This document shows, piece by piece, positions 1 through 59,455 of a stretch of 64,000 nt of DNA. Source of the DNA: Schizochytrium sp. TIO01 (taxonomy: Eukaryota; Sar; Bigyra; Thraustochytrida; Thraustochytriidae); NCBI GenBank assembly GCA_004764695.1, contig SMSO01000031.1, positions 5,317,048 to 5,381,047 on the forward strand. Direction: 5' to 3'. The position numbers and the translations under genes were made by a program. The number at the start of each line of letters is the position of its first letter. Positions within the stretch are counted from its first letter, which is position 1. Under the pieces are notes generated by a model. It did no database searches and was not told the DNA's origin. It worked only from the letters and a program-made list of their open reading frames with translations.

Positions 1-19
1 AGGTAAGCATAAGAATACA

Positions 20-58
20 GGTAGGTAGGTAGGTAGGTAGGTAGGTAGGAGGTAGGTA
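20..58. repeat. (GTAG)n microsatellite
   Basis: About eight nearly perfect GTAG units, with one interruption near the 3' end. Confidence 0.9.
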
Positions 59-89
59 TTTACTTTTAAATTCAATTAACTCAATTAAG

Positions 90-163
90 AATGAATGAAG
101 GGATGAAGGAATGAATGAATGAATGAATGAATGAATGAATGAATGAATGAATGAATGAATGAA
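90..163. repeat. (GAAT)n microsatellite
   Basis: Tetranucleotide GAAT array with a few GAAG variants at its left end. The same unit recurs at 642-661 and 817-891, so the motif has expanded independently several times within 1 kb. Confidence 0.9.
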
Positions 164-520
164 TTAAACAAATAATGAATTAAAATATACTTATAAAAGA
201 ATTCTTCTGGAAATTAGCTGCAGCAGCACTCTTCTGTCCCCAGTAGCATGTTCTTCTTTTCATATTTTGTTACTTAAAGGCAATAATTGTAATGATAAAA
301 TTCGATACATAGCTTTCCAAAGCAAGCTAGCTTGACTGTTAAGCGAATGGGGTACGCGCTCGGACCCCTCCCTCAAGACCCACTCAGTCCTCGAGTGAGC
401 GTAAGCTTGTTCGGAGGAGGGCCAAGAGAACGCAATTTGGCAAGTGCACTCAGGCCGCTGCCTGCTTCTCGAGGGAACCGACGCAGACAGCCCTCCCTTG
501 TTACTCCAGGCGGTTTGCAA

Positions 521-568
521 TACATACATACATATATGCATGCATACATACAAGCATGCATGCATACA
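521..568. repeat. (CATA/GCAT)n microsatellite
   Basis: Alternating CATA and GCAT units, imperfect. Confidence 0.8.
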
Positions 569-816
569 AGAAGCATGGATGGCAGAACAGCCAGCGAAGC
601 AATTCCAATTTCTTTGTGGCAAGCAGTGGAGGAAGAAGCAGAATGAATGAATGAATGAATATGAGCGTGAAGTCAGTCTCTTAGCACTTGGATAAAACAG
701 AAACAACTTCCCACTGACACCTCACAACGTACGGAGCACAAAAGGAACTCTCGGATAGGTGAAATAACTTAGTTGTTTCAGAGAATGAAGGAAGGAAGAG
801 TATTCAGAATGTGAAT

Positions 817-891
817 ATGAATGAATGAATGAATGAAGGAATGAATGAATGAATGAAGGAATGAATGAAGGAATGAATGAAGGAATGAAGG
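817..891. repeat. (GAAT/GAAG)n microsatellite
   Basis: Interrupted array of GAAT and GAAG units, related to the arrays at 90-163 and 642-661. Confidence 0.85.
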
Positions 892-1197
892 ATAGAGAGT
901 AGCAGCAGCAGGGGTACGCAGACGAGCGTGATGATGTTTTTGCAGGTTCCTTATCTCTAATTGAAATGAGATGGGATGAAGTGGGATGAAAATGAAAGAA
1001 AACGATGCACAAACGCATGAACACACGAATAAGTGAGGGATAATTGAACTACCCGTGGAGTTGACTTGACGTGAGTGCGATGATGCGCGCTATAGCTAGA
1101 AAGAGGTTGATGCGGGAATGGAGAAAGGGCCATGCCAATAAACGAACTAGCGAAAATGAATGAGAGCATGGAGGTAGGCACTTCCTCTCTCTCTGTC

Positions 1198-1233
1198 TAT
1201 CTATCGATCGATCGATCGATCGATCTATCGACC
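1198..1233. repeat. (TATC/GATC)n microsatellite
   Basis: TATC units flank about five perfect self-complementary GATC units. Confidence 0.85.
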
Positions 1234-1738
1234 TATCGCGACTCTAGTTTAAGGCGGCCTTGGAGAAAGAGTTTTTTTCCCTCTGAGCACTCGCTCCTTT
1301 TTCTTTTCTTCCTTCCTTTCGCCAAGAGCGTCTCTCAACCACCTCAGTGTCATTATTTATTTCGCTTTGTTGGCGAAGTTTGATGAAAGTTTGTTTTGCT
1401 TTGCCTCTCTTTTTTTCAATAACTTAAATTTTTTGTTTAAAGTAATAAAACATTTAAAGTAAAGTTGGAAGGTGGGGGAGGAGGTGTCTAGCAAGGCGTA
1501 CAGTTTAGCATAGATGTACCAATATGACATGTTCTTGATCTTGAAAATAGCACCGTACGAAAGAAAGAAGAGAGAGTGGAGGGAGCAGAGTATAGTAGAA
1601 ACACTAACAGTCACCTTGCTATGGCTGAATGATATCTTAATGTTGTTGTTTTTATTTTAATAATAAAAATAAAAATAAAATAATAATGTGCATTTGAGTA
1701 CTGTAATTATAAAACATGTGATTCACTCGTCTTATCAT

Positions 1739-1795
1739 TTTTGTTTTGTTTTGTATTGTTTTGTTTTGTTTGTTTTGTTTTGTACTATATTGTTT
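1739..1795. repeat. (TTTTG)n microsatellite
   Basis: T-rich pentanucleotide array with imperfect units. Confidence 0.8.
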
Positions 1796-1993
1796 TTAAG
1801 TATTGATTGGAAGGGCACTTAAAATGAATAAAAGAGCTGAAGAAGAGAGAGAAAGCTGCAAACACAAAAAGAGGAAACAGACGACTCAGAGGAAATCACT
1901 GATCATAAAGGCACCTGCAGCAAATCCTCGATTCAATCGATCGCAGCGGCTGCATCGTCAGGACAGGGAAAAGCAGCAAGCAAACGAGCAAGC

Positions 1994-2020
1994 CAGCGAG
2001 CGAGCGAGCGAGCGAGCGAG
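1994..2020. repeat. (GAGC)n tract just upstream of the ankyrin gene
   Basis: Six to seven GCGA/GAGC units end about 30 bases before the chosen ATG. Related GAGC/GCTC tracts occur near 13.03 kb, 17.44 kb and 62.38 kb. Confidence 0.85.
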
Positions 2021-2050
2021 CCCATCGCAGAGGCGAAGGCATCGTGAGTG

Positions 2051-4826
2051 ATGGCAGCAGCAACGCGAGATCGCAGGCCCGCGGCGTCTCTCGCATCGGA
2101 GACGTCGCGGAGCTCCGATGGCTGTGATGATGAAGATGAAGATGCAGCTATGGCCACAGCCGGGACAATGAATGAACTCGGATTCGCAGGTGCTGCGAGG
2201 ACAGCAGCGCGTAAAAGGCAGCTCTTTAGAGCCCGTGCAAGAAGGGCTTTCACTGAGAAACCTGAAAGTCACGGGCGTAAAGAGGCAGATGAAAGGCACA
2301 TGGAGCGGAGTTCGAACGAGATCTGGCGAGTCCATCAATTGGAGATGCAAATGCAAGAGCGCTTGAGCATGCACCATCAAATACAACACCAACACCAACA
2401 CCAACACCAACATCAAAGGCAGACGAGGCAACAAGGCGACCCAACAGCGACAGCGGCGCTGGACTCAGTCTTCTGGGTGGCGAGACTACTTGGCGCAGAG
2501 CCCAAGAAAATGGAGGTTGGCAAGACAATGACAGCAAGGCTGGGAACGCTCGAGAGACCTGGGGTGGACTCTGCAGCAGGACAAAGACTTGCAGAAATCA
2601 GAAACCAATTGCACAGACACCAGCTTGTGGAACAGGTTAGGACCGTGCAAAGCTTGCCGCTTACTTTGCCGCAGGCACAAAGGCAGCATCAACAGACAGT
2701 GGAGGGGAACCCCGAAGAGACCCGGGTTAACACGCAAGCGCAGCGTTCATTGCGTCAAGAAAACTTTGGGGAAGGACCAAAAGACCAGGTTCGGGAGCAG
2801 AGCTACCCGACCGTACAAAATGATGTCGGCAGTTCTCTTACAGAAAGAGGTAATCCTGCGTTGGCATCAACAACATCGCCAACTCTAGCATTATTATCGC
2901 CACAACACCCGATACAGGGAGACATGTCGGGTTTTGTGGCTACCAGGCACCGCCAGGTTGAAGCTTGGAAACCGTCGAGGGCCGAAGGTGCAGCAATGTT
3001 AGCATCAGCTGCAATGCTAGGAAACAAGACCATAAGCCCATTCGCGTTATCTAGTGATCATTATCGTACCTTCCTTTGGCTAGAGTCAGGGAAACGCAAA
3101 CTTCTGCGCATGGAAGCGAAACTTGAACGAAAGCGTGCGCGGAGCGCATCCCTCGAGGCAGAAACTGTACAACCCATGGAGAAAAATGCGAAACTACCAG
3201 CAGTATGCAAACGAGCAACATGCTGCCCTGCAAGTAGGGCGTGCAGAATCATAAGTAATAACAAAAGTAGCAACAGCATTAGCACTCACAGTAACATGGA
3301 GAACGAAAGCTCGAATCACTGTGAAGACTTTCGCTCGCCAGATTACTGCTGGAAGGATGGGCAGAACATGTTGGTACGGGCGGTATCATGCACTGAGCAC
3401 AGCAATGCACATCAGCTGCGCAAGCTTTTGCGCAAATCCAAGTCGCTCCTCGGAAATACACAAGCTGCATGTGTTGCTCTACAATGCCTTCATCGCTGCT
3501 GCGTCACCCGCGGTTCAAGTCGAGTCACAAAGGTTATCATTCGCTTTCTTCACCTTACTGCCAAGGGCTGGGATGAAGAAGAAATCTCAATTCCTGATGA
3601 ATGGATGGATCCAAGCCTTGCAGGTGCGAATGCATCAATGCTTTGCGAAGCAGTCCGTTATGGTTCTTATGAAACAGCATCTGCGTTACTGCACGAGTCT
3701 GCCTCGTCCCCAATGCATTGCATGGCCGCTAACTGTACACCTTTAGTTGTTGCTGTCTACCAAAACAACGACCCAAATGACCCGCTTGCTACTGGAACGT
3801 GGTGCTGACGCAAATTCGCAAATGTCAACCAACAATATAACTCCTCTTGCCGTAGCCGCTGTGCGCGGAAATATCGAGTGTGCTCGTGTGCTTGTTTCAG
3901 CAGGTGCAGATCCCAACTCCCCATCTCTTGACGGTACCACGCCGCTGATGTGGGCTGTCCAAGTAAACAATAAGGCTATGGTGGAGTTCCTTCTTTCTTC
4001 AGGTGCTGATGTGAACCTGTGCAAAACAAATGGATCCTCGCCCATTATCGTAGCTGTTCGACATGGCCGAGCCAACATGATTCCCCTGCTCGCTCAATAC
4101 GGCGGCGACCCAAACCTTGTTCTTTCAAATGGGGCTACTGCGTTAATCCTTGCTAGTGCAAATGGAGACTTGGAAGCAGTAGATCATTTGCTCCAGATGA
4201 ATTCGGACACTACAAAACGCTTAAACTCAGGAGCACATGCCCTAGCGTACGCGTGCCATCGCGGGCATCGGGATGTTATAATTCGTTGCATTGCTCATCC
4301 TGGCGCCTTGCCAGCGGCCGACTTTGATCGGCTTTTGCTAATTGCCTCGATTAAGAAGCACTCTGCAATCGAAGAATGGCTTAAGCTCTACAAAAAACAT
4401 GGCCGTTTTACTGAATTGCATTTTACATGCTCACTTGGTATGCTTGCAAGGACCTATGGCTTACTGCGATGCCATGGACGTTTCTCAGAGTTGGATCGAG
4501 AGGTGCTCCCTCGAATCTCCCTTCCTTATACACGCCCATACGTTGAGCTTGCGTTAGCCCCATACTCTATTCGCAATGCATACCTGTGGCCTCAGCCTTT
4601 CAATGCGGTCGTGAATGCAGTTATTGACTCTACGTCTGGTGGGCAATACCGAGATATCTTTCTGCATGTATTCTCATTTTGTGATCGAGATTGGTTTGGA
4701 TCCTGCGAATGCACAAAAAATAAACCTCGCATGGGTACAACAATTGTCAGCACAGATGGACACGCCAGTAGTGACGGTAACCAACAGCAACAAAGCGACA
4801 CCCGCTTACCTGCCACTTCCGCCTGA
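2051..4826 (+). pseudogene. Ankyrin-repeat protein gene with one frame break
   Basis: Two overlapping frames form one gene. The first (2051 to stop 3806-3808) encodes about 585 residues: a low-complexity, Arg/Gln/His-rich N-terminal part with a (His-Gln)n run near residue 115, then the start of an ankyrin array. The second (read from about 3780 to stop 4824-4826) continues the array with about five more repeats, each with the GADxN or GADPN turn, then a C-terminal region of about 150 residues I do not recognise. Dropping one base near 3779 joins TPLVVAVYQNNDPN to TRLLLERGADAN with exact ankyrin spacing, giving 924 residues. No AG lies between the last frame-1 and first frame-3 ankyrin residues, so an intron does not explain the break. 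It may be a sequencing error, a real null allele or +1 frameshifting. ATG 2051 is chosen because it is the first in-frame ATG after the GAGC leader. Ankyrin arrays bind proteins; the partner is unknown. Confidence 0.75.
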
Positions 4827-23004: not shown

Positions 23005-24648
23005 CTAGATTGACAGGGCAGAGGAAGAAAACCATGAGGTCATAGCATCCGTCTGAAGCTCCTTGTCTCTACGTAGGGCTACAGCAGGGAGTAATATGCA
23101 GTCAGCAGGGATGTAACGAAATAGTTCTTCGAGAGTATCAAGATAAAAAAACTTGTCCCAAAACTTGGTCGAGACAAATGGCATTGCGGCCCAGAAATGG
23201 GCCTTGAGTTGCCACGTGGGATGAACAACATACATACGCCGCAGGTTCTTCTTATATTTGCGGCCAATGACATCCTCATAATTTGACTTGAACCAAGACA
23301 AACTCGGAAGATTCGCTGCCCCATCCGGGTGATCTAGAAAAACTACTACAAACCCTTTTGGGTGTCTTGAGAGCTTGTCGCATGTATGGGCAAAGTACAT
23401 GAGCAGGCGGTCCTCTGGGATAGATGCACTGAGATTAGCAGCGGCAATCACCACGATGGGCCGACCAAGTGGATCCGTACCTCCACGGTAAATAATGTTA
23501 TAGGCCACCATGTCCTTGAAATCCTGCTCTCCAGCGCGCTCCAGGAGACTAGAATACAATAAATTATCCACAAGGGTATCCACGCCATATACTACTTCCG
23601 TGTAAACTCTTGCAGGTGGGGTAGGGGGTGGTCCAGGGCGTCCTGCAGGCATATATTTGCCATTGACAGTAGTCATGGCCGACGGAATCGAACTTGAAAT
23701 GCGAATCCGGCGATCTTCCATCTCAATTTCACCCCATTCATTGCCTGTGTCCTGCGGGAGGTTTGCAGTTGCCCATAATTCTTCTGCCGCACTGCGAGGA
23801 CAGTACATAGCCAGTGCTCGGGTAAAGTAATCATAGTCCTGCATACTTTCACCCAAATAGAGTACAACATGGTCAAAGTCTGCGGTGAAATGTTCAAGGA
23901 AGCGTCGGATTGTGCGAACAGCAATGTGAGCGCCCGTTTCACGAGGAAAACCATTTTCAGGCGTGAACAAAATTGGCAATGCAACGGACCGTAAATTCTG
24001 CTCCTTACAAATCGAGAGGATGCTCTTATAGCAAGAATGCAGCGAGCTCTCAGCAGCAGTTTTGTATTGGTCTACGAACTTGGGTGCAACTGTGTGAATA
24101 ACATATGTCGCCGCCAAAAGGCACCCGGCAGTGATTTTCGCCTCGCCCACCTGACATCGCGATGGAATTTGGGAACATTCCTCAGGCAGCATTCGACCTG
24201 CGCGTGCCAAAATCTCGCCAGAAATCTCGCCAGACCAGTCGTCAAGCCTCGAATTACTCAAGTTCACCAAAGCATCGACACGAAGGTCTACGAAGACCCT
24301 TGGAGGTCCCTGCATAATCTTAAGGATCTCGTTGATTCGGTGATCCACGGAGAATCTCGAGCGAATTCCAGGCGCAGAAGAGGCCGAGTTTAGTCGAGGT
24401 GGACGAGGCGGCACTGGCGGAGGTATAGGGCGGTCTTCAGGCTCCGGATCAAAGCTTGTTGGCTTCGTTTCGTCGTCATCTTGGCCTGATGCGTGAGTTA
24501 TGGAGCCCAAGTTATCCTTCACAGCGCATCGGGACTTGGCATCTTCCTCTCCCGGAACTGCAGAAACCGACACGGGAGACCATCTCACAGATCTCCAAGG
24601 CTTCACAGCCGCTGAGAGAATCTCAACACCCGATCCTGACGCGCTCAT
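23005..24648 (-). CDS. GDAP2: GDAP2 homologue: macro domain plus CRAL-TRIO domain
   Basis: 547 residues with the two-domain layout of ganglioside-induced differentiation-associated protein 2. After a Pro-rich, probably disordered N-terminus (1-110, with PPPVPPRPPR), a macro domain spans about 113-275 (DALVNLSNSRLDD, VGEAKITAGCLLAATYVIHTV, LRSVALPILFTPENGFP). A SEC14/CRAL-TRIO-like domain follows at about 375-515 (GRPIVVIAAANL, KGFVVVFLDHPDG, YKKNLRRMYVVHPTW). Macro domains bind ADP-ribose derivatives and SEC14 domains bind lipids. GDAP2 has been tied to stress and lysosome-related roles in animals, but its biochemistry is poorly known. The start ATG at 24646-24648 opens the frame. The order and spacing of domains make this family assignment strong. 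Single exon. Confidence 0.92.
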   Translation of the reverse strand: MSASGSGVEILSAAVKPWRSVRWSPVSVSAVPGEEDAKSRCAVKDNLGSITHASGQDDDETKPTSFDPEPEDRPIPPPVPPRPPRLNSASSAPGIRSRFSVDHRINEILKIMQGPPRVFVDLRVDALVNLSNSRLDDWSGEISGEILARAGRMLPEECSQIPSRCQVGEAKITAGCLLAATYVIHTVAPKFVDQYKTAAESSLHSCYKSILSICKEQNLRSVALPILFTPENGFPRETGAHIAVRTIRRFLEHFTADFDHVVLYLGESMQDYDYFTRALAMYCPRSAAEELWATANLPQDTGNEWGEIEMEDRRIRISSSIPSAMTTVNGKYMPAGRPGPPPTPPARVYTEVVYGVDTLVDNLLYSSLLERAGEQDFKDMVAYNIIYRGGTDPLGRPIVVIAAANLSASIPEDRLLMYFAHTCDKLSRHPKGFVVVFLDHPDGAANLPSLSWFKSNYEDVIGRKYKKNLRRMYVVHPTWQLKAHFWAAMPFVSTKFWDKFFYLDTLEELFRYIPADCILLPAVALRRDKELQTDAMTSWFSSSALSI

Positions 24649-51046: not shown

Positions 51047-54000
51047 TCACCTCGATCTCCGAACGAAGCTGCTAGCGCTCTCCAAGTGAAGCAGTGATTG
51101 ATCTGCATCTTTTAAGGCTTGCGTAATGTGAGTGACAATATGTAGGGTAGCCTGAGATGTGTGAAGATAATACAACTGATTTAGCAAAGGATGCTTCGCC
51201 GTGAAAGCGTTACCTCGTTGCCACGCACGTGTGGCACAAAGTACATGCTCCAAAATTGAGTCGGTTGCTGGGAGTTTCTCTGCAAATGCGCGCCTTTCCT
51301 CAGACTTCCAATACAAATCCATCTTGCTCGGAGGAGCACCGATGGCATCATTCAGTACAACAAACTGAATGCGTGGATGGTCGTTCACCAGAAGTGTAAA
51401 GACTTCATGAGAGTCTTGTGGAAATGATGGGTTCCCTTTCACTCCGCTCTCGGCATCCTCCCTGAATTGTTCATCATCCAAAATGTTGTTTTCAATATAG
51501 AAGTTTGATTCTCTTTCATAAGGAAGCACGCTTGGAGCAACACCCTTCGAGGACTTTGGTCTACGTAATCGCTTTGGACGTCTGAGTTTCTTGCGACTGC
51601 TCTGTTTCTTCCCACTCAACGGGCGCTCATCACTGCCCAAGGCCTCGGATTCTTGACCGCTAACCGGATTGATAGGAAGACTATTCACGAGTGCTTGGGC
51701 AACCCGCAATGACTTGCATGTTATTCCCTCCGTCCGAAAAATGAGCCTACTGGTGAGCGTATTGACTTGACACACCTCCAGCGCCATATCGTAATTAGAA
51801 TACCCAAGCTGCTGCACACATGCAAATACAGCTTGAGCAAGAAGTCCCGGATCACTATTGTCCCCCAGGACGCTCAGCCTAGGCACTGCATTGTGGTGTC
51901 CATGGAAGATCGCACAATAAGCGCTGTCAGGATCCGCTGCAAAACAAAATGCAGACAGATGCAAGGCATCAAACGTTTGCTGATTTTTGACGTAAGAATC
52001 CACTAGACCGGAAAGTGCCCAGCGTCGAGTTTTTCCATGGGGATTGCATAACTCTAATGCATCTCGATTTGCCATAATCACTGAGCTGTTGAGGATATGG
52101 CAAATCCGGGGATGGATGCGGCAATATGTAGCTACCCTGCGTTTTTTATTCACCTCCCCAACGTCTCTAAAGCCGCCATCGTCCTCATTATTGCTGCTAT
52201 GTAGGCTTTCGTCGGGTGAAAAGGCAAGGGTATCGATCGATGCTCGATTCATCCCAAATCGCAATGCTCCAGTGTCCCTGATATCGTCCTCTAAAGTTTC
52301 TGGGCATAAGGGAACCGCCAAGGTGCGCTCAGCCAGGTCGCGTTTCGTTTGCTGCAAAAGATTGCTAAAAGAGCTCAACTCTTGCTTCATTTCTTTCCGC
52401 ATCGTGGCCCATGCAACAGATGTATCTTTCAGAGAACCATGGACGTGCTGAAGTTTAGTCAGTCCCGTCTTGAGGCGCTTTTGAGCTTTGGCAGTTCTCG
52501 ACTTCGCAGCACACTTGTGGAGGTCGAGTTCTGAAAGTAGAGCTCCACGCTCCTGGAAATGCTTCCGTCTTTCCATCTCGAGCATCTCTTGCATTTGAGC
52601 AGCATCGGCTGATGCCTGAGTTGCTTCGTTTAAGGCCTCTTCAACAGCTTCCTGGAGCTCCTGTTCTTGATTTTGTGCCCTCTCAGCATCCGCAATAGCG
52701 GCGTCAGCTTTGGCTGAAGCTTCAGCTAAGTTTTCGAGAGCATTCTGCAGCGCAAGAGTGTTTTTCGTTTCAGAAGCCAAAACCTCCTCCAAGCGTACTG
52801 TTCGTTGTGCAAGTTCTTCTTTCACACGATCTAACTCTTCGCTAGTTTCTTTCCATCCAGAGCGTGCCTCAGTCAACTCTTTCGTCAGCGTAGGATCGTA
52901 CTGAGGAACTTGAATAAAGCCTGCTTCTAGGTCCTTCACACGAGATTGAAGTTTCACAAGTTGAGCTTCGAGTTTCGCCTCGCTTACCTTGTATGCTTCA
53001 ATTTCATCAATTGCTGAATTAAGCTCATTCTGAAGTTGCTCTGCATGTTTCTGTGAACTAGACACTGCTTCTTCTTTATCTAATGCTGACCTGGCAATTT
53101 GAGCTTCGAGTTGTGAAAATCGAGTCTTCAATTGTTCCTGAGAAGACTTTTCATTCTCTAATTTCGCAAGTTGTGCCTGAGACACCTGTAGTCGCTCCTG
53201 CAATTCATGAATAGTGCTTGCCAACGCATCAAGCTGCGCTTGATGAGTAGATAGCATGAGGGGCTGTAGACGTGAACTATTTTTGTCCTCTTGGTCATGG
53301 TGTTGCACCAATAGCTTGATTATGTTTTCAAGGGCTTGATGCATATTTGGGTCTTCGATTGTCTTTAGTTGTGCCTGAAGAGACCCAACAGCCTGGGAGG
53401 TAGCTCTGGAGCATTGACAAATTTGCTCTTCCCTCGCAAGTTTCTCTGCTCGACAAGATTCTTGATTAACCTCTTCCTTGGCTATGCGGAGTAACATCTC
53501 AAGGCGCTTAATTTGTTGTGTTTGATCTTCGTTCGTGTCCGAAAGCTCCTTAATTTTCGTTTGAGAATGGGCTCTCACTAAAACAAGCTCAGATTCGATA
53601 CTGTTTCTTGCTTCAAGCGCTTGCTTTTGATTCGATGCACTCTCCAACTGTAGGTTTTCTAAATTTTGTTGGGCACTTGCAAAATTCTCAGCGCTCAGAC
53701 GAGCCCGCTCCTTGTTGCGATCGTTTGCTTCACGCAAAGCCTGTAGCTCCTCGCGGAGGCCCTGTATAATGGCAGCATCTCGCTGCTTGGAAGACTGCAA
53801 TTCGTCTTGCAAAGCCTTCACAGTTTGTTTTGCTCCTTGGAGAGCTTTATTGGATTCTTGTTGCTTCATCATTATTTCGTTACGCTCCCCGCGCAACTGG
53901 TCAAGTTGGATTTGATGCTCTGCTTCAATGTTTGTTAATTTGGTCTCGAATTCTAGATGAGCAGCGTACAATTGTTCGGCAAGCTCTTTGTGATATTCTT

Positions 54001-54538
54001 TGTTGCTTTTCTCGTTAATGGCTGCAACACTGTTTGTTTCACTAACGTCTGCTGAGAAAGAAGTTTTTTCTAGACGGTCTCCATTCATGATCGGGTTTGT
54101 TGACAGTTGACTATTCTGGCTTAGAGCATCCTCCCTAGAACCAGTTTCTTTTTCATCAAGCTGATTTATGCCCTTGCTGGCTGTTGTTGCACTAGGGGAG
54201 CCTGGCCCAGAGTCTGCAGGCGCAGAGAGCTCAATTTGGAGCCTCGATCTTGTTTCTTGGGGCATCAAAGTGAAAGGAACTGCATCAATAACTTCTCCCT
54301 CAGGCAAAACCCAAGTTGATTCTCCAGTTTCCTGGTTATAATAGTATACATTTCCTTGATCGTCCTCGCACTCAAGCCATGTGACCGCATGTACACCAGC
54401 ATCACCTCGTTTTTCATCCTGGGCTGCTGTATTGTTATTCATCGTGATGGTATCCAAGCTAGCTGCCTCCTTTTCCTCCAAAGTTGCCGAAATCATTTCA
54501 TTTGTGGGAGGCAAATCGTCATCTTGTGTGTCCGACAT
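51047..54538 (-). CDS. WW domain, long coiled coil, C-terminal degenerate kinesin-like motor
   Basis: 1163 residues. A WW domain sits at 51-82 (W54, three Tyr at 65-67, W76, P79). A long coiled coil fills about 175-745. The C-terminal part (about 798-1161) follows the kinesin-14 motor pattern segment by segment. RVATYCRIHP is like RVFCRVRP. ALELCNPHGKTRRW is like the beta-strand before the FDRVF segment. SAYCAIFHGHHNAV sits where NVCIFAYGQTGSGKT should be. SHEVFTLLV matches the switch I end (SSRSH-VF). IQFVVLNDAIGA replaces LNLVDLAGSE. AEKLPATDSILEHVL is like EAQAINKSLSALGDV. HPLLNQLYYL...TLHIVTHITQ and SLLHLESASSFVRR match the last helix-strand-helix. The P-loop and switch II are lost, so it should not hydrolyse ATP; compare Vik1/Cik1, the non-motor partners of yeast kinesin-14. 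A Lys/Arg-rich insert lies at 976-999. The motor call is my own reading by eye. The CEP164-like N-terminal WW is an alternative family hint. Confidence 0.7.
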   Translation of the reverse strand: MSDTQDDDLPPTNEMISATLEEKEAASLDTITMNNNTAAQDEKRGDAGVHAVTWLECEDDQGNVYYYNQETGESTWVLPEGEVIDAVPFTLMPQETRSRLQIELSAPADSGPGSPSATTASKGINQLDEKETGSREDALSQNSQLSTNPIMNGDRLEKTSFSADVSETNSVAAINEKSNKEYHKELAEQLYAAHLEFETKLTNIEAEHQIQLDQLRGERNEIMMKQQESNKALQGAKQTVKALQDELQSSKQRDAAIIQGLREELQALREANDRNKERARLSAENFASAQQNLENLQLESASNQKQALEARNSIESELVLVRAHSQTKIKELSDTNEDQTQQIKRLEMLLRIAKEEVNQESCRAEKLAREEQICQCSRATSQAVGSLQAQLKTIEDPNMHQALENIIKLLVQHHDQEDKNSSRLQPLMLSTHQAQLDALASTIHELQERLQVSQAQLAKLENEKSSQEQLKTRFSQLEAQIARSALDKEEAVSSSQKHAEQLQNELNSAIDEIEAYKVSEAKLEAQLVKLQSRVKDLEAGFIQVPQYDPTLTKELTEARSGWKETSEELDRVKEELAQRTVRLEEVLASETKNTLALQNALENLAEASAKADAAIADAERAQNQEQELQEAVEEALNEATQASADAAQMQEMLEMERRKHFQERGALLSELDLHKCAAKSRTAKAQKRLKTGLTKLQHVHGSLKDTSVAWATMRKEMKQELSSFSNLLQQTKRDLAERTLAVPLCPETLEDDIRDTGALRFGMNRASIDTLAFSPDESLHSSNNEDDGGFRDVGEVNKKRRVATYCRIHPRICHILNSSVIMANRDALELCNPHGKTRRWALSGLVDSYVKNQQTFDALHLSAFCFAADPDSAYCAIFHGHHNAVPRLSVLGDNSDPGLLAQAVFACVQQLGYSNYDMALEVCQVNTLTSRLIFRTEGITCKSLRVAQALVNSLPINPVSGQESEALGSDERPLSGKKQSSRKKLRRPKRLRRPKSSKGVAPSVLPYERESNFYIENNILDDEQFREDAESGVKGNPSFPQDSHEVFTLLVNDHPRIQFVVLNDAIGAPPSKMDLYWKSEERRAFAEKLPATDSILEHVLCATRAWQRGNAFTAKHPLLNQLYYLHTSQATLHIVTHITQALKDADQSLLHLESASSFVRRSR

Positions 54539-55405: not shown

Positions 55406-56602
55406 ATGAGCGATCCGGAGTGGGTGTTCGAGTACATGTGCCAGGTGCTTCAATCTCCTTCTTGGGAGGTCCCTATCATGACATATATTGATGAGACATG
55501 TGCGATCTTCGACAACGAAGAAGAAAACAAGCTCTCGCACACCAATTCTCACATGGACTTCAAGGAACTTGTTGAGAGACTCCTGACTGAGCACCTCACC
55601 GAGGTTGGCATTAGTGCTGAGGATTTTTATGAGGCCTGCGAAGTTGCTTACAAAAGCGATGAAGCCACCGATGTTGCACGTCGTATTGTGGAGCAGCTTG
55701 TTGCTTGTGAAGATTTCCTGACATTTAAGGCAATTATGTTTAGACGCAACAAGGAGCTGGAACTCGAGGCTCTTATGGAGTTAGAGAGTGACGACTTTGA
55801 GTCTCATGATATGGCCATTGCTAGCCGCAAGTCTAGCGCCGAGGCTAAACACGATGAGCTTCTCGAGCGACAGGAGACAGCTGACCTTGAGGAAGCTCTC
55901 ATGCTTAGTGAAGAAACCGAACGGCTTAAGGATCTTTCGCTCCGTGAGAAGGAGCAGGCTGACCTGGAGGCAGCTATTGCTTTGAGCCTTGCTATGGAGG
56001 AGCAACGTCTTGAAACTCTAGCGCAGGGTGACGACGAAGGTAAAGACGACGAGGGCAAGTCCCAAGAGAACGAGAGCAAATCCTCTTCTGAATCCAAATC
56101 TAGTGCTGGCTTTCGCCAACGTTCGGCTTTGCCGCCGATCGGAGGTCGCAAAGCAGATCTGGATATTGAAGAGCAGCGTGACATTCTAGATCAACACCGC
56201 CAGACCGCCGAGAAGACATTCAGCCAGCCTCAGCGTGCAGTTTTCGAAGCAAATACTGAAGTTGATGAAGTGGACATTGCTCGCCGCAAGCGCCACCTCG
56301 AGGCGCAGCGTAAGCGCCTGTTAGCCAAGAAGAACGCGGAACGGGCTGCGTTGCTGAAGGAGTATGAAGAGCAAAAACGTGACAACTCAAAAGAGGCGTC
56401 CTCTCCTGCAGCTCCGAGCTCTGATCAGCGTAAGATCTCCCACCAACAGCGCGACCTGACACAGGCCCTCGCCCGTCGCATGAAGCAAGATCTTCTTGAT
56501 TCTGGCCACGGCGCCGGTGGAATGTCTGCTCTCGAGGAGAAGCTCAAGCAGGTTGAACACATGCGACAACAGAGAGCGTCCCTTGCTCGTGGTGGATTTT
56601 AG
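55406..56602 (+). CDS. CFAP36: CFAP36 (CCDC104/BARTL1) homologue with UIM motifs
   Basis: 398 residues, ATG 55406. The N-terminal domain (about 3-120) matches the BART-like domain of CFAP36: WVFEYMCQVLQSPSWEVPIM, DETCAIFDNEEENKL, FKELVERLLTEHLTEVGIS, CEDFLTFKAIMFRRNKELEL. In animals this domain binds the ciliary GTPase ARL3. Two ubiquitin-interacting-type motifs follow: DLEEALMLSEE (about 160-170) and a very good one, DLEAAIALSLAMEEQ (186-200). A charged, coiled-coil tail has the family's HLEAQRKRLLAKKNAERAAL stretch and ends near KLKQVEHMRQQRASL. The gene supports a flagellated life stage and sits between the WW/kinesin-like gene and an SHIPPO-repeat gene. Confidence 0.9.
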   Translation: MSDPEWVFEYMCQVLQSPSWEVPIMTYIDETCAIFDNEEENKLSHTNSHMDFKELVERLLTEHLTEVGISAEDFYEACEVAYKSDEATDVARRIVEQLVACEDFLTFKAIMFRRNKELELEALMELESDDFESHDMAIASRKSSAEAKHDELLERQETADLEEALMLSEETERLKDLSLREKEQADLEAAIALSLAMEEQRLETLAQGDDEGKDDEGKSQENESKSSSESKSSAGFRQRSALPPIGGRKADLDIEEQRDILDQHRQTAEKTFSQPQRAVFEANTEVDEVDIARRKRHLEAQRKRLLAKKNAERAALLKEYEEQKRDNSKEASSPAAPSSDQRKISHQQRDLTQALARRMKQDLLDSGHGAGGMSALEEKLKQVEHMRQQRASLARGGF

Positions 56603-57151: not shown

Positions 57152-59455
57152 TTACTCATAAGAAATATTCGAGCCTTCATTCACCCGAATACTTTCAAAT
57201 AAAGAGGAATTGCTGGAGCTTGTCGAGGCGTGCAACTTATGGTTGCCGCGTTGGGTCTCCCACTGATTGAGTAGCGCCTTGCCATTGGTCATGGTAACAT
57301 TAAATGATTTCTTGACCATGGAACCTCCAACAGAGTAGGTACCAGGACCACAGGATGTTGCCATTTGAGACTTTGGAATAAAAGATGAGGGTCGAATAGT
57401 GTTTTCCGTTTCCTGATGCGTTGATGCTTGTCGTTGCGCTCCTGTTCGATTTGCTCGTAAAGATTGGAAATTTTGATACTTCTTTTCATCCTGTTGGTTG
57501 GTAGACTGACGAAATGAGCTTGTGGGACTATATGCTGCTGGTCCTGGAATCTCAGGATCTGAGAATCCAAACGCAGATCCTCGACCTGAAAATCGACGTG
57601 CTGTGCTTCGGAAAACTGCACTTGATCCTGGCTTTGGCTTTCGATAGCTACTCGCGTCGGGGCTGAGTTCTGGGTAAGGGTGGCCTCCAACAGCCCGTTT
57701 TGTTGTGTCTGCAAAGTGTGGGTTGGTTGTCAAAGGGCCCTTGCTTTCTTCGTCGTCTGAGTAGGAGGCAAGTCTGCGCGCCCCTTTCATAAATGAAGAG
57801 GTGGGCTTCTGTCGCCTTTGTAGAATGATTTTGGGAGTTAGTCGCGGTCGAATAGGGTCCATCATGAAATACTCCGGTGTTGGATCAATCTGAAGCTCCA
57901 TTTGTAGTAATGTCGCCTCCTGTACCTGAGTTTCGTACTCCAAAAGCTCTTCTTGCTCTTGCATACGTCGTTCCAATTCAGTCTGCATAGGTCGGTAGGT
58001 ACCCGGGCCAGGCTGATATGCAACACGCTTGGACTCCTCTTCGAAAATTGATGTTTTCTTAGCTGTAGAGCCAAAGACACTGCGCGGGACGGCCTCACGA
58101 ATAAATCCGACTGCTGTGAAGGGTCTGATTGTATCGAGATCACCACTTGATCGCGTTTTGGCGAGCTCTGAAGTTGGTGCTGAAACTGACATTTGGGAAT
58201 TTGGAATGGAAGCATCTCCTGTGGGCTCTTCGAAGGGGACCATGGCAGTAGTTGACGAGTCCTCCTGATGGTTGCTTTTATGAGTCTGCTCTGAGGGCAC
58301 AACAGCTGGCTTTCGTGGTACTTTACGTGCATGCTTCTTTTCTTCAAGTACACGCTGAGCTTCACGCTGTGCACGTGCTTCCAGTTGGGATGTAAGCCAA
58401 GACACCTTCCTCGTCTGTTTGTAAGACCCTGGTCCTGGCATGTGCATTTGTGGTGGGGTTGAGTATGGTGTCTGAGCGTGGCGAACAACAGTGTTTTCGC
58501 GAGAACTAGAGCTACCAAAAGGTACGCTCTTTGCTGACCCGCGCCTTGTTCGTGGGCGCCCGTTTGGACCAAAATGTAAGGTCGCGTTATTTGCGTGATG
58601 ATGCGAGCTCATTTCAACACTAGCGCTAGACCAGGGTCGCGGCCTTGCATCAAGTGTGCTTGGGCGCATTTCGTGTGCCATGGGCGTTTTAGACATAAAC
58701 GCAGATGTCCCTCCAACGTTTTTTAAATTCGATTCCATTGATGTACCAAGTGTGTATGCAGCTGGGCCTGGGCCAAGTGCTTTGGAAGGATCAAAGGCCT
58801 CGGCATATGGAGATCGTTTTGTGTTTGAGTTCCCAAACCGCACTGTTTTGTCTGCATCACTGGGGATTTTTTCACTATTGTATTGGCCTGGTCCAACACA
58901 ATCATTCTGGGTACCTTTGTATGTGATAAATGGAACTGGGTGTAGACTAAGTGAGCCTGTCTTCTCATCCACATCATATCCAAAGTGTTTACCAGGAATA
59001 GGGATGGCTGCTGGAGTGTTTGCAGAAAACCCCAGAAGATCACCTGAGGAGAACTGCCGTTTCGGTTCCTTGCGGAGATTCTCCTGGCGCTTGGCTTCGA
59101 GCTTTCCTGCACCTTGAGTGTTTAAGTCATATTGCCCAACGCCAGGGTTCTTAATGTATGTGCAAACTCCATATCCGGTCGTGCCTGTACCAACAGGGAC
59201 TAAACGTGGCCCCCCGCCTCCAAGCTTATTAGACGGAGTTGCTTTGTTACTAGTCTCTTTAGCTGCGTATGATCCTGGTCCAGGTACATTTTCTTGTGAA
59301 GCAATGTCTGATCTTTGTGCCGAGGTTGCGAAAGGAATGACGCTAGGCGGTACTGAGTATTCTGCATGGGAAACGTAGCTTCCAGGGCCTACTGCGGAAG
59401 GGGTGCGTTTAAGTTCAATATCGCTCTTACGCTCTGATCTAATCGGGAGCGACAT
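57152..59455 (-). CDS. Sperm-tail PG-rich (SHIPPO/STPG) repeat protein
   Basis: 767 residues carrying about nine spaced Pro-Gly-Pro-Gly-x-Tyr-type motifs: VGPGSYVSH, VPGPGSYAAK, PGVGQYDLN, VGPGQYNSE, LGPGPAAYTLG, MPGPGSYKQT, QPGPGTYRPM, IPGPAAYSPT and CGPGTYSVG. These are the signature of SHIPPO/STPG proteins, several of which are microtubule inner or surface proteins of flagella. Between the repeats it is Ser/Thr/Lys/Pro-rich and probably disordered; one short helical segment (about 490-520, LERRMQEQEELLEYETQVQE) stands out. Length and repeat number suit STPG2-like proteins, but the repeats alone do not settle orthology. The start is ATG 59453-59455. Single exon. Confidence 0.88.
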   Translation of the reverse strand: MSLPIRSERKSDIELKRTPSAVGPGSYVSHAEYSVPPSVIPFATSAQRSDIASQENVPGPGSYAAKETSNKATPSNKLGGGGPRLVPVGTGTTGYGVCTYIKNPGVGQYDLNTQGAGKLEAKRQENLRKEPKRQFSSGDLLGFSANTPAAIPIPGKHFGYDVDEKTGSLSLHPVPFITYKGTQNDCVGPGQYNSEKIPSDADKTVRFGNSNTKRSPYAEAFDPSKALGPGPAAYTLGTSMESNLKNVGGTSAFMSKTPMAHEMRPSTLDARPRPWSSASVEMSSHHHANNATLHFGPNGRPRTRRGSAKSVPFGSSSSRENTVVRHAQTPYSTPPQMHMPGPGSYKQTRKVSWLTSQLEARAQREAQRVLEEKKHARKVPRKPAVVPSEQTHKSNHQEDSSTTAMVPFEEPTGDASIPNSQMSVSAPTSELAKTRSSGDLDTIRPFTAVGFIREAVPRSVFGSTAKKTSIFEEESKRVAYQPGPGTYRPMQTELERRMQEQEELLEYETQVQEATLLQMELQIDPTPEYFMMDPIRPRLTPKIILQRRQKPTSSFMKGARRLASYSDDEESKGPLTTNPHFADTTKRAVGGHPYPELSPDASSYRKPKPGSSAVFRSTARRFSGRGSAFGFSDPEIPGPAAYSPTSSFRQSTNQQDEKKYQNFQSLRANRTGAQRQASTHQETENTIRPSSFIPKSQMATSCGPGTYSVGGSMVKKSFNVTMTNGKALLNQWETQRGNHKLHASTSSSNSSLFESIRVNEGSNISYE

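Follow-up and report, generated by a model that had tools for sequence, protein, structure and literature searches.

Can a protein end in a kinesin head when the motifs by which a kinesin ATPase is known are missing from it? The question is raised by a gene on the minus strand of a 64,000-nucleotide stretch of contig SMSO01000031.1 of the thraustochytrid Schizochytrium sp. TIO01 (hereafter the window). Its product, here called the window protein, had been predicted from its letters to carry a WW domain, a coiled coil and a C-terminal, catalytically dead kinesin motor domain. The layout itself is confirmed: the reading frame is intact, Pfam matches the WW domain, heptad periodicity across residues 181-790 stands well above that of shuffled sequences (standard score, z, 5.7), and the motifs quoted in the prediction are present. 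The candidate head lies at the C-terminus, behind a stretch called coiled-coil-like from its periodicity and separated from it by about 55 residues that contain Pro, Gly, Ser and Asp. From sequence comparison we consider it probable that this domain originated from kinesin-14, and we give a probability of about 0.62 to the joint claim that it descends from a kinesin-14 motor and has lost its ATPase.

The comparison drew on the 64-Mb assembly of the organism (37 contigs with eukaryotic gene content). A tree of 52 kinesin motors from this genome holds a group of 13, and a profile made from 11 members of the group together with the window protein has KCBP, KIFC3, Kar3 and Ncd as its first matches in the PDB; the 13 motors were therefore taken as kinesin-14 and used as its profile. 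In ten of them the motor ends at most 90 residues from the C-terminus, and the other three (L014, L030 and L048) have 218-325 residues beyond it. When residues 797-1163 are aligned end to end with this profile, that is, globally in the profile, the score is higher than that of all 300 shuffled sequences (z 4.6), is reached by none of 400 shuffles at each of three gap settings, and is reached by two of 4000 in a larger set. Residues 786-1163 against the untrimmed profile give z 3.6, with one of 500 shuffles as high. Profiles with permuted columns never attain the score of the whole domain (0/200) or of its N-terminal half (0/500), and the latter is reached by 3 of 5000 shuffles. The program hhalign likewise matches residues 799-911 to columns 3-120 of the motor in the 13-member profile; none of 300 shuffles scores as high (best 27.1 versus 27.3), and for residues 786-925 alone the best shuffle scores 23.0 versus 26.6. 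A kinesin-14 exon of another organism (L060), which stands outside the profile, also aligns colinearly with the window protein, at an identity of 19% that has no control set beside it. The contig of this exon (JAIYDP010000249.1, from a metagenome-assembled genome labelled Verrucomicrobiaceae) carries a kinesin-14 motor split over different frames and is probably eukaryotic contamination of that assembly.

The similarity is also specific to one kinesin class. Eight groups of other kinesins from the genome, comprising 35 motors, yield z values from -0.3 to 2.5, and a pool of 34 of the 39 motors outside kinesin-14 yields 0.8 (L046, L047, L050, L055 and L056 were excluded as partial or divergent). 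Random six-member profiles, 25 of each kind, average z 3.6 when drawn from kinesin-14 and 1.5 when drawn from other kinesins. Within kinesin-14, the signal is carried by the subgroup that contains L008/L057 and L009 (z 3.8). Colinear alignment better than chance, and weaker for other kinesin classes, is what a head derived from kinesin-14 would give, and it is what we find.

Tiles cut from natural sequences provided a further control. A first set, compared by raw score, was nearly clean: none of 453 tiles scored as high as the N-terminal half, one of 507 as high as the C-terminal half, and none of 172 as high as the whole domain. In a larger set that included non-motor pieces of kinesin genes, these counts were 1 of 1062 and 16 of 1193 for the two halves, and raw whole-length scores do not separate the window protein from natural tiles, 35 of 350 being as high. 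Thirty-one of these 35 are non-motor kinesin-gene pieces and four come from the window protein's own N-terminal part, and their high scores probably stem from coil composition. The single high N-half tile belongs to L011, whose motor is split, and is probably a true motor fragment. In view of these probable sources of high raw scores, each tile was instead expressed as z against shuffles of itself (40 for a tile, 400 for the window protein), with L011 excluded, 120 rather than 90 residues masked before each motor, and coarser tiling. After this correction no natural tile equals the whole domain (z 4.3; 0/241) or the N-terminal half (z 4.7; 0/573), and 7 of 634 equal the C-terminal half (z 2.9). 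Over its first 150 residues the domain thus resembles kinesin-14 well, and beyond them marginally. The original prediction had residues 798-1161 following the kinesin motor block by block, and this description is supported for the first 150 residues and is suggestive at most for the rest.

Several results weigh against a kinesin origin. To the raw whole-length tiles and the corrected C-terminal half must be added, first, the outcome with broader or narrower profiles: one built from all 52 motors gives an ordinary end-to-end score (z 2.0; 16 of 500 shuffles as high), and the ankyrin/WW subclade of kinesin-14 by itself gives z 1.8. Second, the C-terminal half is equalled by 43 of 5000 shuffles and by 4 of 500 permuted-column profiles, and with hhalign by 14 and 18 of 300 shuffles; for the last 78 residues, 192 of 300 shuffles are as high. 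Third, the statistics are milder when Gumbel distributions are fitted to the shuffles in place of counting (p 0.004 for the whole domain, 0.005 for the N-terminal half and 0.022 for the C-terminal half), hhalign itself assigns the kinesin-14 alignment a probability of just 5.8%, and in global mode it fails, with 41 of 100 shuffles as high. Fourth, at an expectation value (E) of 10 or less the Pfam families Kinesin (PF00225) and Microtub_bd (PF16796) match the window protein neither over its full length nor when its last 377 residues are searched separately, a PF00225 search of the genome (E<=10) gives 68 matches without the window protein among them, and a local hidden Markov model of the 52 motors scores it at -2.6 bits, below its reversed sequence (-1.9) and many shuffles. 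Fifth, Foldseek returned no kinesin among the best 50 of 562 and 743 matches (E<=10) for two AlphaFold models, both of them poor. Finally, codon signal is weak over residues 801-1000, where an antisense frame ties with that of the gene at 801-900. Two qualifications apply to the halves: without the SHEVFTLLV block the C-terminal half is not significant (with three gap settings, 77-128 of 1000 shuffles are as high), and the half probabilities are somewhat optimistic because the boundaries were picked after the alignment had been viewed.

The standard searches offered little in place of a kinesin. At E<=10 the last 377 residues match no Pfam family whatever. Three kinesin-14s of the genome whose frame includes a motor match PF16796, a family that we take to be tied to the motor homology domain of Vik1 and Cik1, at E 1.7e-36 or lower. 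A phmmer search of PDB chains found no kinesin; its matches, all to chains of the interleukin-17 receptor and none better than E 0.01, we regard as chance. Within its own genome the C-terminal domain matches nothing but itself, and searches of the viral_contigs, genome_contigs and phages collections found no relatives of it. A search for kinesins found none in viral_contigs, and in genome_contigs a single kinesin-14, the one on the L060 contig. AlphaFold gave a mean predicted local distance difference test (pLDDT) of 38 from the window protein alone and of 40 from a two-row alignment with the L060 exon, with a predicted template modelling score of 0.28 in both cases. Models at this pLDDT are too poor for the Foldseek results to be informative, and a TDP2-like fold that Foldseek proposed was rejected (template modelling score 0.13 on an unusable model). 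Profile search and structure prediction had been suggested as checks; they yielded no Pfam Kinesin match, no other family that scores well and no confident structure, so neither of the two outcomes named beforehand as refuting was seen.

An alternative is that the C-terminal domain is an unrelated, lineage-specific fold whose resemblance to kinesin is due to chance and was picked out by eye among many proteins. The finding was indeed chosen post hoc from a 64-kb window, kinesin is unsupported by curated families or by sequence search of the PDB, the all-kinesin profile is ordinary, the C-terminal half is weak, and the AlphaFold models say nothing either way. Chance would have to reproduce, however, an N-terminal half that no natural tile equals once composition is corrected, a signal specific to kinesin-14, an alignment that begins at the domain boundary, and a layout equal to that of a WW kinesin-14 in the same genome (L057, described below). 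We regard this explanation as somewhat unlikely.

If the domain is a kinesin-14 head, its nucleotide site has changed beyond ordinary use. In a MAFFT alignment (A2) of the window protein and 11 kinesin-14 motors out of the 13 (L039 and L048 were omitted as N-terminally incomplete in the form extracted), GHHNAVPR and DAIGAP occupy the places of GQTGSGKT and DLAGSE, exactly the two motifs that had been reported as gone. The RxRP motif reads RIHP, and no GxxxxGK[ST] pattern occurs in residues 787-1163. With the P-loop and switch I lost and switch II largely so, ATP hydrolysis of the ordinary type by this domain appears very unlikely. Sixteen of the 52 columns invariant in the 11 motors are retained, a count from an alignment chosen to match and lacking a shuffled control. 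A basic insert sits N-terminal of the switch I position. The positions of these and the other features of the gene are collected in the table.

Table. Features of the window protein gene (window positions; all on the minus strand).
Feature	Residues	Position in window	Strand	Basis
Whole gene, intact 1163-codon frame with ATG start, no internal stop, 1163 amino acids; the positions take in the stop codon	1-1163	51047..54538	-	
WW domain	54-79	54302..54379	-	Pfam PF00397, E 1.8e-8, 34.7 bits (cut-off 26.9)
Coiled-coil-like region	~181-742	52313..53998	-	Heptad periodicity
Probable flexible linker from coil to head	~743-799	52142..52312	-	Judged from sequence
Motor-like C-terminal domain	800-1163	51050..52141	-	End-to-end alignment to kinesin-14 motors; hhalign covers 799-911
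P-loop position, GHHNAVPR replacing GQTGSGKT	880-887	51878..51901	-	MAFFT alignment A2
Very basic cluster, within an inserted segment that most kinesin-14 motors lack	977-998	51545..51610	-	Sequence and alignment A2
Switch I position, KGNPSFPQDSH versus NQHSSRSH, SH retained	1034-1044	51407..51439	-	Alignment A2
Switch II position, DAIGAP replacing DLAGSE, D and G retained	1064-1069	51332..51349	-	Alignment A2

Divergence of this order invites the thought that function resides in the coil and WW domain, and that the C-terminal domain is a decaying remnant, drifting without function. Identity to kinesin-14 motors is 13-18%, whereas those motors share a median of 41% with one another, and the weak codon signal at residues 801-1000 fits the same picture. 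A free end without function should, however, lose its frame fast, and here 364 codons remain open, in contrast to the other five frames, which each have 2-8 stops per 100-codon window across residues 801-1100. The codon score of the gene's own frame is the highest or joint-highest of the six in every one of the 11 windows tested, each of 100 codons (residues 1-1100). Decay accordingly seems improbable to us, and a retained, non-catalytic head of kinesin-14 type remains the preferred reading.

The WW domain, the sole Pfam family above its cut-off in the window protein, had been singled out as the feature that makes the protein unusual, and this part of the original prediction does not hold. A genome-wide WW search (150 matches scored among 219 candidates) recovered the domain of the window protein, and WW or WW-like domains also occur in four genuine kinesin-14 genes. 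One of them, L057 (C13:2844277-2848014, plus strand; frame 378-4112 of the segment C13:2843900-2848300), has the same order of an N-terminal WW, a long coil and a C-terminal kinesin-14-type motor. Its WW domain scores 27.0 bits against a cut-off of 26.9, its motor matches Pfam Kinesin at E 5.5e-111, and its frame measures 1245 amino acids counted from TTG, so that the true start may differ. Its N-terminal WW region may resemble that of the centriole protein CEP164. The other three include ankyrin repeats: L020 and L038 add a WW or WW-like domain, a coil and a motor near the C-terminus, and L039/L058 adds a WW or WW-like domain and a long coil, the greater part of its motor lying in the next frame, probably a separate exon. 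In L038 and L058 the WW domain passes the Pfam cut-off in the genome-wide search and falls slightly short of it in another Pfam search. A search for the layout of WW, coil and motor, as had been proposed, thus succeeds within the organism's own genome, in L057 and, with ankyrin added, in three more. Since the pairing of WW and kinesin-14 is ordinary there, it raises the prior for a dead kinesin and makes the WW domain less surprising.

Beyond layout, the window protein and L057 differ. L057 retains GQTGSGKT, SSRSH and DLAGSE, has a motor that Pfam recognises, and shares no coil similarity with the window protein. By blastp, the coil of the window protein resembles none of the WW kinesin-14 frames (best E 1.6), and its best match among other kinesin frames is to a kinesin with an N-terminal motor (E 0.047). 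Apart from the WW domain, blastp links the window protein to no WW kinesin-14 of the genome. Recent paralogy with a WW kinesin-14 was ruled out on the absence of coil similarity.

The original prediction had compared the window protein with Vik1 and Cik1 of yeast, whose sequences are barely recognisable as kinesin. In kinesin-14s the neck coil passes directly into the head. Vik1 and Cik1 consist of a coiled coil followed by a C-terminal head without the elements for ATP binding and hydrolysis, and in yeast only the heterodimer with such a non-catalytic head moves processively, the head serving as a foothold for the active partner (excerpt of PMC4338441). Likened by description, the window protein agrees in having a coil and then a C-terminal head without ATPase elements. 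It differs in its N-terminal WW domain, its basic insert and the flexible linker before the head, and it has no known Kar3-like partner. The parallel lies in the probable dead C-terminal head behind a coil; the linker of about 55 residues tells against a neck-type junction like that of Vik1.

A stricter version of this comparison, itself a sub-case of kinesin-14 descent whose odds overlap with it, would make the window protein an obligate non-catalytic partner, which joins an active WW kinesin-14 by way of its coil and supplies the foothold head. In its favour are the active-looking kinesin-14s with a WW domain and a coil in the genome, and the restriction of processivity in yeast to the heterodimer, as given in the same excerpt (PMC4338441). 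The coil of the window protein, however, resembles in blastp neither the WW kinesin-14 frames nor the other kinesin frames compared, the linker separates it from the head, and in cryo-electron microscopy of Kar3Vik1, as excerpted, the Vik1 head is directed off the microtubule in three nucleotide states (PMC3544905). Obligate partnership of this kind is in our judgement unlikely. The other role put forward in the original prediction, at the basal body, would be conjectural.

To our knowledge, the only dead kinesin-14 heads with a worked-out function are fungal. Smy1, Costal-2/KIF7 and KIF26 have degenerate kinesin heads without an ordinary ATPase cycle; they differ from the window protein in that their motor sequence is still recognisable and belongs to other kinesin classes. 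PseudoKinesin-21, compared by description, shares the label of a divergent kinesin group, an orphan one that is currently unique to fungal taxa according to the excerpt (PMC5076506). In excerpts of the open-licence full-text literature, the matches listed include no WW kinesin-14 and no non-fungal dead kinesin-14 head, which does not establish that such proteins are absent from print.

Taken together, the lost motifs and the alignment specific to kinesin-14 indicate that the call of a dead kinesin-14-like head is probably right, with marginal support from the C-terminal half. The picture that these observations favour is a WW coiled-coil dimer whose dead head acts in ATP-independent docking or scaffolding. 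The long coiled-coil rod would dimerise the protein, the highly diverged head would retain the motor fold and serve as an ATP-independent docking site for the microtubule or another partner, the basic insert may contribute electrostatic binding, and the N-terminal WW domain would recruit a Pro-rich partner. With a flexible linker of this length between coil and head, tethering is a more likely mode of action than a stiff drive through the neck, so the head would be held on a leash and not step by a lever arm. Granted a kinesin-14 origin, the chances of a docking function seem to us evenly balanced.

Adjacent genes encode a BART-like domain (55406-56602, plus strand; PF11527, E 2.1e-33) and SHIPPO repeats (57152-59455, minus strand; PF07004, E 3.6e-5). 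Both families are cilium-associated, and such adjacency is weak evidence in a eukaryote. Elsewhere in the window, the minus strand at 23005-24648 encodes a macro domain and, after it, a divergent CRAL/TRIO domain.

The genome contains other odd kinesins. L053 (C32:628000-632500, frame 1578-4499, plus strand) matches Pfam Kinesin at E 1.8e-17 over profile positions 122-325; its frame has a head near the N-terminus and a long tail, lacks GxxxxGK[ST] and SSRxH, and reads LVDLAEAHH at the place of DLAGSE. The kinesin-like L054 (C33:4156500-4158700, frame 1-1488, plus strand; E 2.5e-10) is likewise without a P-loop, its best Pfam stretch being motor positions 273-324 near its C-terminus. The very divergent L052 (C24:5193000-5196500, frame 670-3501, plus strand; E 2.3e-21) has a P-loop, GKTQAGKT, and lacks SSRxH and DLAG. 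Given the two further kinesins without a P-loop, L053 and L054, this genome may suit the study of motor loss.

The broadest interpretation is that a non-catalytic kinesin-14 head arose in this protist separately from that of budding yeast, as a partner of the organism's WW kinesin-14s, that the WW domains on both subunits select a shared Pro-rich cargo, and that dimers of dead and live heads are a recurrent invention. We hold this to be decidedly unlikely as it stands. If such a second origin, next to active kinesin-14s that bear a WW domain as well, were true, it could be used to test whether a non-catalytic head is a general route to processive minus-end kinesins or to the conversion of a motor into an anchor.

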